Below, one piece after another: positions 1,813 through 42,935 of a stretch of 54,578 bases of DNA. How positions within the stretch are numbered: position 1 is the stretch's first letter; each line of letters begins with the position of its first letter. Source of the DNA: an uncultured Halieaceae bacterium (GTDB taxonomy: Bacteria > Pseudomonadota > Gammaproteobacteria > Pseudomonadales > Halieaceae). The notes beneath the pieces are model-generated. The model was not told where the DNA came from. It saw nothing but the letters and a program-made list of their open reading frames with translations, and ran no database searches. Made by a program: the position numbers and the translations under genes. The DNA lies in contig CAJXMD010000009.1 of NCBI GenBank assembly GCA_913056165.1, forward strand, positions 1 to 54,578, read 5' to 3'.

Positions 1813-4240
<2,428 letters not shown>

Positions 4241-37009: not shown

Positions 37010-37321
37010 TTAACCGAGGCTGATCTGAACTTCTACACCAGCCGCCAGGTCAAGCTTCATCAGGGCGTCCACGGTCTTTTCCGTGGGCTCCACGATGTCC
37101 AGGAGTCGTTTGTGCGTGCGAATTTCGTACTGGTCCCGCGCGTCTTTGTTGACGTGGGGAGACACCAAAATAGTAAACTTCTCTTTCTTGGTGGGAAGCG
37201 GGATAGGACCGCGAACCTGAGCGCCTGTGCGGCGTGCAGTCTCAACAATTTCTTGCGTCGACTGATCGATCAATTTGTGATCAAAGGCCTTGAGGCGAAT
37301 ACGAATGCGCTGACTCTGCAC
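37010..37321 (-). CDS. rpsJ: 30S ribosomal protein S10
   Basis: S10 is in the 30S head and also acts as NusE in antitermination. The 103-residue product reads [40 protein letters not shown] and [20 protein letters not shown]. Start is GTG at 37321 with AGGAG 8 nt upstream. First gene of the S10 operon, with a strong promoter at 37382-37410. The gene normally upstream, tuf, is absent here. Confidence 0.98.
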
Positions 37322-37381
37322 TTTACTGCTCCTGAAAAAGCCGGGATGCCGCGAAGGGGACCCCGCAAAAAAAGAGTGCGA

Positions 37382-37410
37382 AGTTTACGGATGCCCTATG
37401 GGGGTGTCAA
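37382..37410 (-). promoter_or_regulatory. Sigma70-type promoter of the S10 operon
   Basis: On the minus strand: perfect -35 TTGACA (37410-37405), 17-bp spacer, -10 TAAACT (37387-37382). The transcript would start near 37375, giving a leader of about 55 nt before the rpsJ GTG. An imperfect hairpin between pqqE and this promoter (CCCTTT/AAAGGG near 37482-37504) may end the pqq transcript. Confidence 0.8.
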
Positions 37411-37514
37411 CACAGGATTTGGCTTTATTTCAGGGTTTCAGCCCCCTGAGCAAAATTCACAGTTTGATTCCTCCGGACTGCAGAAAAGGCCCTTTTTCAG
37501 TGGGGAAAGGGGTA

Positions 37515-38651
37515 CTAAAGGCCCCCGGAAGAAGCTATCAGGTCCTTGCTGTTGGCTAGAGTCCTAAAAAGCAGCGGCGAAGGGGGTCTCTGACGGTGGC
37601 TACCCGCCCTTATAAGGGCTTCGTCAATCAAGGCGCGATGGGGGGACAGGGTGCAAACCGGGTCCGCAGCGGCGGCATCCCCTGTGAGCGCGAAGGCCTG
37701 ACAGCGACATCCCCCGAAGTCACGGTCTCGCTCTGGACACTGCCGACAGGGTTCCTGCATCCAGTCCTCTCCCCGATAATGATTAAACCCGGGAGACTCA
37801 TACCACGCCTGACTCACCGACTCAGTGCGCAGGTCGGGAAAATCGATCGGCAATGCAGCTGCGCTGTGACAGGGCAGCGCCCGGCCCTCTGGCGTAACGG
37901 TCAAAAACATCGAACCCCAGCCGTTCATGCACGGGTTGGGTCGCTCTTCAAAATAATCAGGTACAACGAAGAAAAGCTTCATCCCGCCGGGATTTGCCTG
38001 CCGCCATTCATTCACGGCAGTTTCTGCCGCTTCGATTTGTTGACGGCTTGGCATCAGTGAATCACGATTTTGAAGTGCCCAGCCGTGATACTGCGTGTTC
38101 GCGAGCTCCAGATAATCAGCCGAAAGCGACTCTGCAAGGGCAATGATCTCGGGCACCTGATCTATGTTGTGTCGGTGCAACACAAAATTGAGCACCATGG
38201 GATACCCCGCCTCCTTGACCGCCCTTGCCATCGCTACTTTCTGGGCGTGGGCTTTGCCACTCCCCGATATCAACTCGGACAGCTCTTCATCCGTGGACTG
38301 GAAGCTAATTTGAATATGATCTAGCCCGGCGTCTTTCAGCGCCGAGACGCGTTCGCGGCTGAGACCCACTCCGGAGGTGATGAGGTTGGTATAGAACCCC
38401 AGACCCCGGGCATGACTCACCAGATCCTCCAAATCTTGACGCACGAGAGGCTCGCCACCTGAGAAACCCAGCTGGGCTGCGCCTAACTCCCTCGCCTCAG
38501 TGAGGATGCGCAGCCACTCCTCGGTGTTAAGTTCACGGGCGCCAGCCTGCAGGTCCAGAGGATTAGAGCAATAAGGGCACTGAAGGGGACAGCGGTAGGT
38601 CAACTCCGCCAGAAGCCAGAGAGGTGGGCCTACCCTGTCAGTCACTGACAA
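37515..38651 (-). CDS. pqqE: PqqA peptide cyclase, radical SAM enzyme
   Basis: Forms the Glu-Tyr carbon-carbon bond in the PqqA precursor, starting PQQ synthesis. The 378-residue protein opens [20 protein letters not shown], with the CxxxCxxC iron-sulfur cluster site for S-adenosylmethionine, then [15 protein letters not shown] and [13 protein letters not shown]. The C-terminal SPASM cysteines are in [25 protein letters not shown] and DPVC. The frame starts at TTG 38651, inside pqqD; GTG 38645 is equally possible. Close to Klebsiella PqqE over its full length. Confidence 0.95.
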
Positions 38652-38907
38652 GCCACTGGTTGGTGTGTGCAGTAACGAGAAAGTCGATGATATCGGTTTC
38701 GATATCCGGTGCCTCGGGAAATTTCTCTGTTAACAGGCCAATGATCTCGGCAACAGACCGCTCACCATTACAGACCGCAAGAATCTCCCCTGCCGATCCA
38801 TTCAGCTTCACCATTCCCTCTGGGTAAAGCAGCACATAGGCCTCTTGAGCGGGCTCCCATTGAAAGCGCAAATGCGGATGCAACCGCGGAATTTCCCCGG
38901 GCTTCAT
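38638..38907 (-). CDS. pqqD: PqqA-binding chaperone PqqD
   Basis: PqqD carries the PqqA peptide to PqqE. The 89-residue product has [38 protein letters not shown] and the conserved [12 protein letters not shown] segment. Its ATG overlaps the pqqC stop as ATGA, and its end overlaps pqqE by 14 nt, so C, D and E are translated together. Confidence 0.94.
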
Positions 38908-39668
38908 GGCAGCACTCCTGGCGGCAACGGATATGCTTCGCCAGTGCAGCTATGGAAAGGAGGCTCTCCGTGGCAATAGGCGAGTGTCATGGCATCGAGC
39001 ATCGACCACAGAATATTCAGCTTGAACTGCAACAACCCCAGCGCATGAGCTTGCTGCTCAGCGGTCTGAAAGTGATCGAGGGTGATACGTAGACCATGCT
39101 CAACATCTCGTCTGGCTTCGCTCAATCGCTTGCGAAAGTAGCTTAGGCCCGTTGCGCTTATCCAGGGATAATGATCGGGCCATGAGTCCAGCCGAGACTG
39201 ATGAATCTCAGGGGCAAATAGTTCTGTTAGCGAGGAACAGGCTGCTTCTTGCCAGGTGGCGCGGCGAGCAAAGTTCAAGTAGGCGTCTACTGCAAATCGA
39301 ACCCCGGGCAGCACGTAGCGCTGATCTACCACTTCATCTCGTGACAGTCCCACCGCTTCAGCGAGTAACAACCACGCCTCGATACCACCCGGATCTGTCC
39401 CAGCGCCGTCGTGATCAACAATTCGTTGAACCCATTCCTGACGTACTTCTCGATCGGGACAATTTGCGAGTATCGCGGCATCCTTCTGGGGGATGATCAC
39501 CTGATAGTAGTAGCGATTGGCTACCCAACCCTGTATCTGGCCCACGGAGAGTTCACCCGCATACATCGCCTGATGAAAAGGATGATGGATATGGTAGCGA
39601 GCACCCTTACTCCGGAGTGCTGCCTCAAAGTCGTCTCTGCTCAAGACCAATGACACAATGCATTTCAC
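38904..39668 (-). CDS. pqqC: Pyrroloquinoline-quinone synthase (last step)
   Basis: Cofactor-free oxidase that closes the last ring and completes PQQ. The 254-residue protein shows [40 protein letters not shown], the active-site [16 protein letters not shown] and LRQFK-like [16 protein letters not shown] region. The start is taken as GTG 39668; there is no clear ribosome binding site and GTG or TTG codons a few triplets on are alternatives. The 223-bp region to the divergent TM2 gene contains no recognisable pqqA (Glu-x3-Tyr peptide) and no pqqB. Confidence 0.93.
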
Positions 39669-39891
39669 GTTATTGCTTGACGGTGGAGTATTCTAACGGA
39701 CATCGGCCGTGCTCCGACACAGCAACTTCTCGAGGCGTCATCGTTACACGAGGTAATGCACCCACAAAGCGGCATTGATCTGCATATAAATCAGAAACAA
39801 ACTGGGATAATCTGATAACAGGCGCTGCGTGAAAGCCGGCAACGGCTTGCATCAATGTGGCTTAAAAGCACGGTATTCAAGGAGGAACACC

Positions 39892-40299
39892 ATGGAGCAC
39901 GAAAAACCATTATCAGACCACAGTATTTTTCTCGGCTATGTGATGTGGGTCTTCGGCATTATTGGCTTGCATCGGTTTTATTATGGCAAACCAATCAGTG
40001 GGGCTATCTGGGCGTTGACCTTGGGCCTACTCTTCATCGGATGGATCATCGATTTGTTTCTCATACCCGATATGGCTGACGAGGCGACTCGGCGATTTCC
40101 AGGCGGCCAGTATGACTACAATCTTCCCTGGATTCTCTTGGTTCTCTTAGGCGTGTTCGGGGTCCATCGTTTCTATCAAGGTAAAATCCTGACCGGGCTG
40201 CTCTACCTCGTCACACTGGGTCTCTGTGGTCTCGGCGTTCTTTATGACTGGTTCACTCTTAACCGACAGATCGCTGATCTCAACTTGGGGATAGACTGA
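39892..40299 (+). CDS. Protein with two TM2 domains
   Basis: Small membrane protein of 135 residues. Two similar halves each have a GxxGLHRFYYGK-type start followed by hydrophobic helices: first GIIGLHRFYYGKPISGAIWA, then FGVHRFYQGKILTGLLYLV. This is the TM2 domain (PF05154) in tandem. ATG 39892 is fixed by an excellent AAGGAGG at 39879-39885; a longer frame upstream is not used. It is the only plus-strand gene between 22.4 kb and the window end, divergent from pqqC. Role unknown; no functional tie to PQQ can be read. Confidence 0.85.
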   Translation: MEHEKPLSDHSIFLGYVMWVFGIIGLHRFYYGKPISGAIWALTLGLLFIGWIIDLFLIPDMADEATRRFPGGQYDYNLPWILLVLLGVFGVHRFYQGKILTGLLYLVTLGLCGLGVLYDWFTLNRQIADLNLGID

Positions 40300-40342
40300 C
40301 CGGTTCGGTGAGTGGTTCCGCGCAAGTCTAGTAAACGGTCTC

Positions 40343-40409
40343 GCTGATGAGAAACTGTTTTTCAGTCGCTCCACGAAATTCGCTTGGTGAAAAACAGTGT
40401 CTCACCAGC
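40343..40409. repeat. Hairpin element R0 with conserved 23-nt tip
   Basis: Two 22-nt arms (40343-40364 and 40388-40409) pair at 20 of 22 positions, including a perfect CTGTTTTTCA/TGAAAAACAG block, around a 23-nt tip at 40365-40387. The tip is the inverse complement of the tip in the three elements downstream, differing from the first by a single base. It lies 43 nt after the TM2 stop and may also end that transcript. A second small inverted repeat (GCAGAC/GTCTGC) follows at 40441-40466. Confidence 0.85.
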
Positions 40410-40493
40410 TTGGTTTCTGCGTTGACGTAAGACTTACACAGCAGACAATGATTCAGATAAGTCTGCACTGCTAGCAATATCGCGCTCCAAAAA

Positions 40494-40710
40494 GCATGGC
40501 GTGCAAAACATTGAATCCAAACACCCCATATTTTGGCACGATCTCCAGCCTCGGGGGCTGGCATGCTTTCCGCCAAGCGAATTTCGCGGAGCGACCGGAA
40601 AGCATGTCGTGCAAAACACTGAATCCAAAACTGCCTATAGTCTGGCACGATCTCCAGCCTCAGGGGCTGGCGTGCTTTCCACCAAGCGAATCCCGTGGAG
40701 CGACTGGAAA
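40494..40710. repeat. Tandem 108/109-nt repeat (two full copies)
   Basis: Copies at 40494-40601 and 40602-40710 begin GCATG and share GCAAAACA, TGAATCCAAA, GGCACGATCTCCAGCCTC and a GGGGCTGGC block, then the hairpin with the conserved tip. A third, diverged and shortened copy continues to about 40800. Within each full copy CCAGCC/GGCTGG makes a further small hairpin. No protein is supported here; the short frames across the region follow the repeat, not codon constraints. Confidence 0.85.
40562..40606. repeat. Hairpin element R1 with conserved 23-nt tip
   Basis: A perfect 11-bp stem, CATGCTTTCCG (40562-40572) with CGGAAAGCATG (40596-40606), surrounds the tip at 40573-40595. Beyond the stem, pairing resumes (TTTTGgCACGA with TCGTGCAAAA) after a one-sided bulge of about 20 nt that itself holds the CCAGCC/GGCTGG hairpin. 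Confidence 0.85.
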
Positions 40711-40715
40711 GCATG
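40671..40715. repeat. Hairpin element R2 with conserved 23-nt tip
   Basis: Stem CGTGCTTTCCA/TGGAAAGCATG pairs at 10 of 11 positions around the tip at 40682-40704. The pair next to the tip is A-T where R1 has G-C, a compensated change. Outer ends TAGTCT (40638-40643) and AGACTA (40736-40741) also match inversely, so the whole element may span 40638-40741. Confidence 0.8.
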
Positions 40716-40740
40716 TCGGCGTATGAGGCGACCAGAGACT

Positions 40741-40820
40741 AACAAACCTCAGGGGCCGGCGTGCTCTCCACCAAGCGAATTTGCTGGAACGACTGGAACG
40801 CGCGCCAGCGCATGTTTGTT
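40741..40820. repeat. Hairpin element R3 with conserved 23-nt tip
   Basis: Most diverged copy: tip at 40771-40793; inner arms GGCGTGCTCTCCA and the inverse of GGCGCGCGTTCCA match at 10 of 13; outer ends AACAAAC (40741-40747) and GTTTGTT (40814-40820) are exact inverse repeats. It ends 7 nt before the fusA stop codon, so together with R0-R2 it accounts for most of the 527-nt gap 40300-40826. Confidence 0.7.
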
Positions 40821-40826
40821 CAGACT

Positions 40827-42935
40827 TTAATAGGTCTGGTTTTTTGAAATGATGGCCTGAGCGACATTGCTTGGCGCCTCGGCATATTTTGAAAACTCCA
40901 TGGTGTAGGTCGCACGACCCTGAGTCGCTGAACGCAGATCAGTCGCGTAACCAAACATCTCGGCCAGAGGCACTTCAGCATCCACCACCTTGCCCGAAGA
41001 ATTCTCATCCATCCCATGGATAATGCCCCGCCGACGGTTAAGATCGCCAACGACATCACCCATGTTCTCTTCCGGCGTGACAACCTCTACCTTCATCATG
41101 GGCTCCAGCAGGACCGCGCCCCCTACCTCTGCAAGCTTTCGCGTTGCCATAGAGGCCGCAATCTTGAATGCCATCTCGTTGGAATCAACGTCGTGATAGG
41201 AGCCGTCATAAACCGTAGCCTTGAGTCCCAGCAGGGGGTACCCGGCAAGAACGCCGTTCTGCATCTGCTCTTGAATGCCTTTTTGAACAGCGGGGATGTA
41301 TTCCTTTGGAACCACGCCACCGACTATCTCATTTTCAAATTCCAGTCCTTCCTGGCCTTCGTCATCAGCGGGTGCAAACTTGATCCAGACGTGACCGTAC
41401 TGGCCCCGGCCGCCAGACTGGCGCACAAATTTACCTTCAATCTCCACGGTATTACGAATGCGCTCACGGTACGCGACCTGAGGCTTACCGATATTCGCCT
41501 CTACGCTGAACTCTCGCCGCATCCGGTCAACGATAATGTCCAGATGCAGCTCGCCCATCCCTGAAATGATGGTTTGTCCTGTTTCTTCATCGGTCTTGAC
41601 GCGGAAGGACGGGTCTTCCTGGGCCAGCTTGCTAAGGGCTATACCCATTTTCTCCTGGTCCGCCTTTGAACGTGGCTCCACCGCCACAGAGATAACGGGC
41701 TCAGGGAATTCCATGCGCTCAAGCACTACGGCATTACCGGGATCACAGAGCGTGTCGCCCGTAGTAACGTCCTTCAAACCGATCGCGGCGGCGATATCTC
41801 CCGCCAATACTTCCTTGATCTCTTCGCGGCTGTTGGAGTGCATCTGAACCATGCGACCAACCCGCTCTTTTTTGCCCTTCACAGAGTTGTAAACAGCAGT
41901 ACCGCTTTCAAGTTTCCCCGAGTACACCCTGAAAAACGTGAGGGTGCCGACAAATGGATCGGTCGCTATTTTGAACGCCAATGCAGAAAAGGGCTCATTG
42001 TCATCTGAGTGACGCTCCGCGGGGGTCTCCCCATCTTCAAGAGTGCCCTCGATCGCTTTAACTTCAGTGGGAGATGGCAGAAATTCAATCACCGCGTCCA
42101 ACACAGCCTGAACGCCCTTGTTCTTGAAGGCCGAACCACCGAGCACGGGTACGATCTCGTTTGCGAGCGTTCGCGCTCTCAGACCCTGCTTGATTTCATC
42201 CTCACTGAGTTCACCCTCTTCGAGGTACTTGGTCATGAGCTCTTCATTGGCTTCTGCCGCCGCTTCCACCATGTACTCACGTAGCTCGGCTACTTTGTCT
42301 GTGAGCTCATCGGGCACGTCTGCGTAGTCGAATGTCATTCCCTGATCATCTTCGTTCCAGAGAATGGATTTGTTCTTGATTAGATCGACGACACCCTTGA
42401 ATTCGTCTTCGGCACCAATAGTCATCTGGATGGGAACAGCGTTACAGTTCAGGCGGTCCCGCAGTTGGTCAACAACCCGCTCAAAATCAGCACCCGCGCG
42501 GTCCATCTTGTTGACAAACACCATACGCGGGACTTCGTATTTATTGGCTTGGCGCCACACGGTCTCGGTTTGAGGCTGAACCCCTGATGAGCCACACAGA
42601 ACCACAACCGCACCATCGAGCACACGGAGCGAGCGCTCGACCTCGATCGTGAAGTCGACGTGCCCGGGGGTGTCGATAATGTTAATTCGGTGCTGATCAA
42701 ACTGCTGCTGCATTCCCTGCCAAAAACAGGTGGTAGCAGCAGAAGTGATGGTGATACCGCGTTCCTGCTCCTGCTCCATCCAGTCCATGGTGGCAGCACC
42801 GTCGTGGACCTCGCCAATCTTGTGAGAGAGACCGGTGTAAAACAGAACGCGCTCTGTGGTGGTGGTTTTCCCGGCATCCACGTGGGCACAGATACCGATA
42901 TTGCGATAACGTTCTATCGGTGTTTTGCGTGCCAC
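40827..42935 (-). CDS. fusA: Elongation factor G
   Basis: Translocation GTPase of 702 residues. The G domain shows G1 [19 protein letters not shown], the switch region [12 protein letters not shown]3 DTPGHVDF and G4 [10 protein letters not shown]. Later domains carry [18 protein letters not shown] and, near the C-terminus, RRRGIIHGM. Start is GTG 42935 with AAGGGC upstream. The C-terminus ends normally at KNQTY. In the common order tuf would follow and then rpsJ; here the repeat region, TM2 gene and pqqCDE lie instead. Confidence 0.98.

Follow-up and report, generated by a model that had tools for sequence, protein, structure and literature searches.

We found that four hairpins lying between a TM2-domain gene and fusA in an uncultured Halieaceae bacterium belong to a real family, REP/BIME-like in layout and spread, and are best read as a variant of extragenic palindromic repeats in which the stem is long and the tip conserved. 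The repeat unit is a 75-nt hairpin, in which a near-constant 23-nt tip with internal pairing is carried on a long stem. The family is patchily distributed in Gammaproteobacteria, including some marine and soil bacteria. The conserved tip and the co-changing arms suggest that the folded strand itself is recognised by some cell component.

Four hairpins between the TM2 gene and fusA

A pattern search of the window (the whole stretch of 54,578 nt that was analysed) located four 23-nt cores, CCAAGCGAATNNNNNGGAGCGAC, between the TM2 gene (39892..40299, plus strand; Pfam PF05154, E 7.8e-28) and fusA (elongation factor G, named by reading of the ORF; 40827..42935, minus strand), both of which converge on the hairpins. 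The cores of R1, R2, R3 and R4 have 0, 0, 0 and 1 mismatches, respectively, and CCAAGCGAAT is identical in all of them. None of 100 shuffles reached four cores, the chance mean being 0.04. The initial annotation, which had described four near-identical 23-nt cores sharing their first ten bases, is confirmed on this point.

Do the arms pair within each copy, as was also claimed? In R1 and R3 they do. R1 (40343..40409, minus strand; tip 40365-40387; extent by the covariance model 40339-40413) contains a 22-nt inverted repeat (91%) and is paired at 22 of 26 stem positions, and its tip strand folds as DNA with a z of -5.85, with 0/200 shuffles folding as well. R3 (40656..40730, plus strand; tip 40682-40704) is paired at 23 of 26 positions and has a z of -4.16 (0/200 shuffles as stable). 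Both were recovered by the covariance model (E 9.2e-15 and 3.5e-14), of which they are training rows. Pairing is weaker in R2 (40560..40608, plus strand; tip 40573-40595), which has a short stem of ~13 bp, 16/26 pairs and a z of -2.23 (9/200 shuffles as stable), and which the model found at E 1.7e-8 without its being a training row. R4 (40745..40819, plus strand; tip 40771-40793, with one mismatch) is a degenerate copy with 17/26 pairs that the model missed at E ≤ 0.001. We regard it as a weak hairpin because it folds no better than shuffles (z -0.87; 37/200 as stable).

Next to the tip, three copies (R1, R3 and R4) have an A-T pair and R2 has G-C, the opposite of the earlier statement that it changes from G-C in R1 to A-T in R2. 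Furthermore, the tip had been described as conserved and single-stranded; it is conserved, but in the window copies it is predicted to form an inner helix with a 6-nt bulge on the 3' side and is thus not simply single-stranded. R2 and R3 are spaced 109 nt apart (108 nt for the upstream part) and R3 and R4 89 nt apart. A repeat search placed R2 and R3 in a tandem repeat with units of 108–109 nt (40491..40718, plus strand), in agreement with the 108-nt repeat noted before. A small palindrome, CCAGCCTCGGGGGCTGG, was read from the sequence at the 5' foot of R2 (40545..40561, plus strand), and a similar one, CCAGCCTCAGGGGCTGG, before R3 (40654-40670). At L. concretionis loci (L220, L223 and others), a small palindrome is also found at the 5' foot of the hairpin, e.g., CCACCGGACAGTCCGGTAG.

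In the window (37010-42935), TM2 and apparent pqqC, pqqD and pqqE genes lie between rpsJ and fusA; TM2 was identified by Pfam, and the others are what we take the genes to be from reading them. In two relatives (L278 and L037), tuf follows fusA, where the window has TM2 and the pqq genes, and a search for a tuf match within the window gave none. The Halieaceae MAG Ww294 has a tuf/TM2 gap with two hairpins (each 23/26 pairs), one of which has a GGCCGCGAC-type tip, and in Halioglobus HKST-UBA220 a hairpin-bearing repeat unit adjoins TM2. In H. japonicus BC5_1 (L037), TM2 lies next to tuf, and the two hairpins are found elsewhere, upstream of rpsL. In a same-genus genome (G053), the tuf-TM2 gap is ~100 bp and has no hairpin.

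A near-constant tip on covarying arms

Among 191 hairpins preselected by a requirement of 20/26 pairs, 166 had stems of 23–29 bp, with a mode at 26 (74/191) and a second mode at 23 (32/191). In a set of 127 distinct copies, which takes in the window copies and four chance loci, pairing was 70–98% through pair 26 and 33% at pair 27. When arms were swapped between different copies, a mean of only 13.5 of 26 positions paired. Variants of the tip include CAAAGCGTGTATCGGGGAGCGAC, CCAAGCGAGTATCGGGGAGCGAC and CCAAGCGGATAACGGGCCGCGAC. At two HKST-UBA220 loci (L045, ~1220; L070, ~5561), the partner hairpins have a tip of the CCAAGCGAATTCGTTGGTCCGGCACTCCGGGAGCGAC type that is ~14 nt longer.

Covariation was evaluated in an ungapped 27-row alignment, whose rows are 27 of 33 script-chosen divergent copies picked partly for good pairing; window R2 and R4, L112 (which has an N), L096, L032 and L035 were left out, several of them poorly paired. 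The results show that 94.4% of the cells were paired compared with 59.2% after shuffling and 38–45% in slid registers, and that the covariation score was 0.894 compared with 0.194, a value reached by 0/500 shuffles. The number of pairs changed on both sides (25) was reached by 51/500 shuffles and is uninformative. In 21 cross-species comparisons at 16 loci (546 pairs), 354 pairs were unchanged, 126 were changed on both sides yet still paired, 27 were changed on one side only and 39 lacked pairing in one of the two copies compared (L328 accounts for 11 of them). The proposal of the initial annotation, a conserved tip carried by covarying arms, therefore holds in other genomes, and the alternative outcome it had named, alignments without covariation in the arms, is contradicted.

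Could the arms arise de novo, by tips that insert and copy neighbouring DNA by fold-back? This was considered because the arms of eight WH4.bin29 hairpins were no more alike than shuffled ones (similarity 0.345 versus 0.319). However, in the four closest comparisons (flanks 95–97% identical), no pair had changed on both sides, 5 had changed on one side and 6 were unpaired, as expected of ordinary mutation followed by compensation, so that de novo arms are not favoured in this small sample.

The folding strand can also be told from the mismatches in the stems. Counted over the inner 24 pairs, the 191 distinct hairpins had 209 G-T/T-G compared with 34 A-C/C-A pairs, and 115 purine-purine compared with 21 pyrimidine-pyrimidine mismatches; a thinned set of 71 hairpins gave ratios of 64/19 and 37/8. 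The excess of G-T over A-C identifies the tip-bearing strand as the one that folds and on which the constraint acts. The G-T excess, though not the purine-purine one, could be partly due to deamination of an exposed strand. Because RNA tolerates G-U as well, the strand bias is equally compatible with single-stranded DNA and RNA. Agreement of the hairpin strand with GC skew (6/17 and 19/35) supported no bias with respect to replication.

Copies, distribution and arrangement

In the window's own genome (2.43 Mb, 86.7% complete), cores with 0–1 mismatch are only the four described above. The sole 2-mismatch match has 5/26 stem pairs, and at ≤3 mismatches the pattern gave 24 matches compared with 20 for the reversed control. 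At E ≤ 0.001, the covariance model recovered three of the four window hairpins, two of which are its training rows, and no copy beyond the window among the candidates scored (150 of 784 and 12 of 728). A search of 97 relatives, of which 56 belong to the same genus, added two single core matches with 2 mismatches each, which we consider to be without a stem because only 8 and 13 of 26 positions pair.

An exact core scan of a one-genome-per-species collection gave at least 119 stretches with at least 160 core matches, and those listed were mostly in Halioglobus-type MAGs, Pseudohaliea rubra, Lysobacter or Luteimonas. The known distribution is incomplete, since these counts are minimum figures. 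Four stretches (two Bradyrhizobium, one Gluconobacter and one Ignavibacteriales) were judged by eye to be chance matches. In 18 genomes chosen for having matches, the covariance model detected from 1 to at least 118 copies each, which are lower bounds with at most 150 candidates scored per genome. Positive genomes numbered 4/390 in a survey of the order (covariance model, 12 candidates scored each), 4/369 in a pattern survey of the class, with stems only in the window's own genome, and 5/299 in a strict-pattern survey around L. concretionis (Lysobacterales), L. concretionis included. The initial annotation had regarded a lack of further copies as evidence against it; they are indeed absent from the own genome and the same-genus genomes searched, but present in the wider family and class. 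A phage origin was rejected, as 27 viral-contig stretches fit a loose core with at most 14/26 pairs.

Neighbours at most 600 bp apart numbered 35 (the window contributed three, and many were HKST-UBA220 pairs that are copies of each other and not independent); 26 were tail-to-tail, 8 tandem and 1 head-to-head; thus, 26 of the 27 inverted neighbours were tail-to-tail, and inverted pairs with short spacers are the arrangement expected of BIMEs. In HKST-UBA220, the hairpin pair lies within a repeated unit of ~400–470 bp with TIR-like ends, CAGCGTGTTGAAAAA (loci L031 to L130), and its spread there is explained by this larger unit. In at least one copy (L130), CTAG flanks the unit on both sides. 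Such a unit is like a MITE as characterised in PMC3733652. Unlike MITEs, the copies in P. rubra, Lysobacter and WH4.bin29 have nothing in common beyond the hairpin and a few bases next to it. A clean insertion of one hairpin with defined ends was not observed in the material examined.

Gene context and a possible RNA function

Could the hairpins function as RNA? They would then be transcribed in 3' or intercistronic regions, where the long double-stranded stems and a protein-binding tip would set mRNA stability or processing. By crude script-made gene calls, and with 80 of the 191 hairpins excluded (60 for lying at edges, 8 because their gaps were wide and 12 because they fell inside called ORFs), 69 hairpin gaps comprised 20 convergent, 10 divergent and 39 co-directional gaps compared with 23, 53 and 90 among 166 hairpin-free gaps. 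This convergent excess (Fisher p 0.009) and divergent deficit (p 0.006) are in favour of a transcribed element, as is the position of several hairpins between co-directional housekeeping genes. The hairpin gaps include those between what we take, from reading the proteins, to be lpxA/lpxB, hslV/hslU, adk/mpl and infC/rpmI; at an xerC/hslV gap, HslV and the Xer-like recombinase were confirmed by Pfam. The tolerance of G-T pairs points the same way, since in REPs it has been taken to indicate an RNA function (PMC3733652).

On the other hand, the convergent preference was not repeated in 20-kb stretches of two genomes, in which 6 hairpins were in convergent, 5 in divergent and 33 in co-directional gaps and 7 overlapped called ORFs; the background counts for the three gap types were 35, 32 and 135 (convergent, 6/44 hairpins outside ORFs versus 35/202). 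Although the tip fixes the folded strand, co-directional hairpins did not favour either orientation with respect to the genes (15 sense and 18 antisense in the two genomes; 7 and 13 among single co-directional hairpins of the 69-gap set), and the orientation was flipped at 4 of the 16 compared loci. Furthermore, no Rfam match above the gathering score overlapped a hairpin, either in the window or at eight loci, where 2 of 11 matches reached gathering. At L064, V_AS9 (4043-4146; 50.4 versus 50 bits) and an FMN riboswitch (2922-3097) are above gathering and lie off the hairpin. An intrinsic terminator was also rejected, with TTTTT following the 3' foot in 0/189 hairpins and in 1/189 on the other strand. 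Considering both sides, we find an RNA element rather unlikely.

Retention, gain and loss of hairpin sites

Alternatively, old REP-like copies may have been recruited by the host as sites for a chromosome-maintenance protein, in which case they would be selected and not mobile. Flank comparison showed that G109 has a hairpin at 6/6 listed hairpin gaps of G972 and at 2/2 of G1059, and base changes affected 32 of 483 tip positions compared with 324 of 1092 arm positions across the 16 loci, as would be expected of host-kept sites. However, only 1/4 gaps of G986 and 4/12 of L. ruishenii (G105; one of them in a neighbouring gap) were also occupied in G109. The cross-species comparison is, moreover, biased toward kept tips: both tip constancy and site retention are overstated because the loci were mostly found by their tip.

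To avoid this bias, a 20-kb stretch of L. concretionis that carries 7 hairpins grouped into 4 clusters was compared with two relatives, and in both of them only 1/4 clusters was occupied by a hairpin. At two of the unoccupied clusters the gap was shorter in the relatives (212 bp versus 63 and 65; 748–806 versus 60 and 116), and at the third it was filled with other, longer DNA. From the shared gaps and the three clusters absent in relatives, it follows that some hairpin sites are old, whereas others are gained or lost. This turnover and the patchy distribution (5/299 Lysobacterales) make a host-kept site unlikely.

Comparison with known systems

Are the hairpins, then, substrates of a RAYT/Y1 tyrosine transposase, i.e., long REPs or TIRYT-type repeats? 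In the literature considered, REPs have a basal stem of 7–20 nt and a loop of 2–5 nt or a second short stem (PMC6006769), and the REPs and BIMEs that are tagged with GTAG or CGTC have stems of ~5–13 bp, whose loops are mostly short (Di Nocera 2013, PMC3733652). Like these elements, as far as the latter text describes them, our hairpins are short intergenic palindromes that are patchy across species, have G-T pairs in their stems and occur as singles, tail-to-tail dimers and tandem groups. Unlike them, they have a stem of ~26 bp (second mode 23), a constant 23-nt tip, both exceeding the published ranges, and no tag in most lineages. GTAG or GTGG (GTRG) was found near the foot in 41/189 hairpins overall compared with 196/3780 for a random 10-mer control; by lineage, it was frequent in P. 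rubra (24/44) and L. concretionis (11/26), which argues for such a substrate, but occurred in only 1/40 hairpins in HKST-UBA220, 0/31 in Ve_Sed_32 and 1/8 in WH4.bin29. TIRs associated with TIRYTs, reported in Stenotrophomonas among others, flank Y1 genes and are longer, partly self-complementary repeats in dimers according to the same source (PMC3733652); the hairpins resemble them in the latter respect but are not beside Y1/RAYT genes, a distinction drawn by description and not by sequence.

Y1_Tnp matches were present in 7/12 hairpin genomes and RAYT-model matches in 7/11, two of them above the cut-off (L. antarcticus was negative for the former and positive for the latter), which is again in favour of a transposase substrate. 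However, both models were negative in P. rubra (67 copies) and L. ruishenii, which are drafts, and in the own genome. The initial annotation had proposed to look for a linked RAYT transposase or integrase, and no hairpin was found within ~±1.5 kb (some stretches shorter) of 12 Y1_Tnp and 11 RAYT-model matches (0 in 23 loci). Nor did the hairpins have a common neighbour: among ORFs of ≥90 aa within 3 kb in 17 genome groups, no cluster was shared by more than 4 groups, and none of the 25 clusters listed was recognised by eye as a recombinase or transposase. The hairpins thus depart from REPs in stem and loop size and in the absence of a flanked RAYT gene, and have a foot tag only in some lineages. 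A RAYT/Y1 substrate is highly improbable.

An integron attC is a recombination site that is used as a folded single strand, with its core sites at the stem and a tip that varies. Here the reverse is seen, the tip being constant and the stem variable, and the RYYYAAC/GTTRRRY foot signature of attC was present in 0/189 hairpins. An integron integrase was above the cut-off in 7/11 hairpin genomes and 0/14 controls, but this co-occurrence is given no weight because the comparison has no background rate from close relatives. None of five integron integrase loci examined contained a hairpin. In G986 (contig C7), a hairpin at 224394 lies ~3.5 kb from an integron integrase (227923-228864), possibly by chance. 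Of the options in the initial annotation (a REP/BIME-like palindrome, a folded-strand recombination site or structured RNAs), the REP/BIME-like palindrome remains the best, minus the expected transposase linkage. We found no published description of such hairpins in a search of text outside figures, supplements and most subscription literature, and among the matches listed for the string CCAAGCGAAT, none concerned such repeats by title.

Proposed explanation and meaning

The account that we favour, with slightly less than even confidence, is that R1 to R4 are copies of a dispersed REP/BIME-like palindrome with a long stem and a structured tip that is read, as folded single-stranded DNA, by a putative protein. 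The locus would consist of one inverted and three tandem copies of a palindrome whose stem of ~26 bp carries a structured tip of 23 nt, R2 to R4 probably having arisen by local tandem duplication at the TM2 gap. The tip strand may fold whenever it becomes single-stranded, in the lagging-strand template or in an extruded cruciform, and the tip and bulge would then be read by a putative protein encoded away from the hairpins; the partner-gene searches revealed no such reader. At least in the past, the units would have been copied or moved, and in this genome one locus would be left, in a convergent gap beside TM2 that has a counterpart with two hairpins in a Halieaceae MAG. It is possible, although doubtful, that an undescribed folded-ssDNA system, neither RAYT nor integron, recognises the tip; in such a system the tip would be structured, a stem of ~23–26 bp would be measured while its sequence is ignored, and sites would be long kept in housekeeping-gene gaps with flips allowed.

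The REP families described in PMC3733652 and PMC6006769 are defined by a foot tag and a short stem. In the present hairpins the tip is constant and the stem may have any sequence provided that its arms match, and this points to a reader of the folded strand. If confirmed, they would be natural tools for probing DNA that is single-stranded or in cruciform shape inside cells and would offer a route to finding the putative reader of folded strands.
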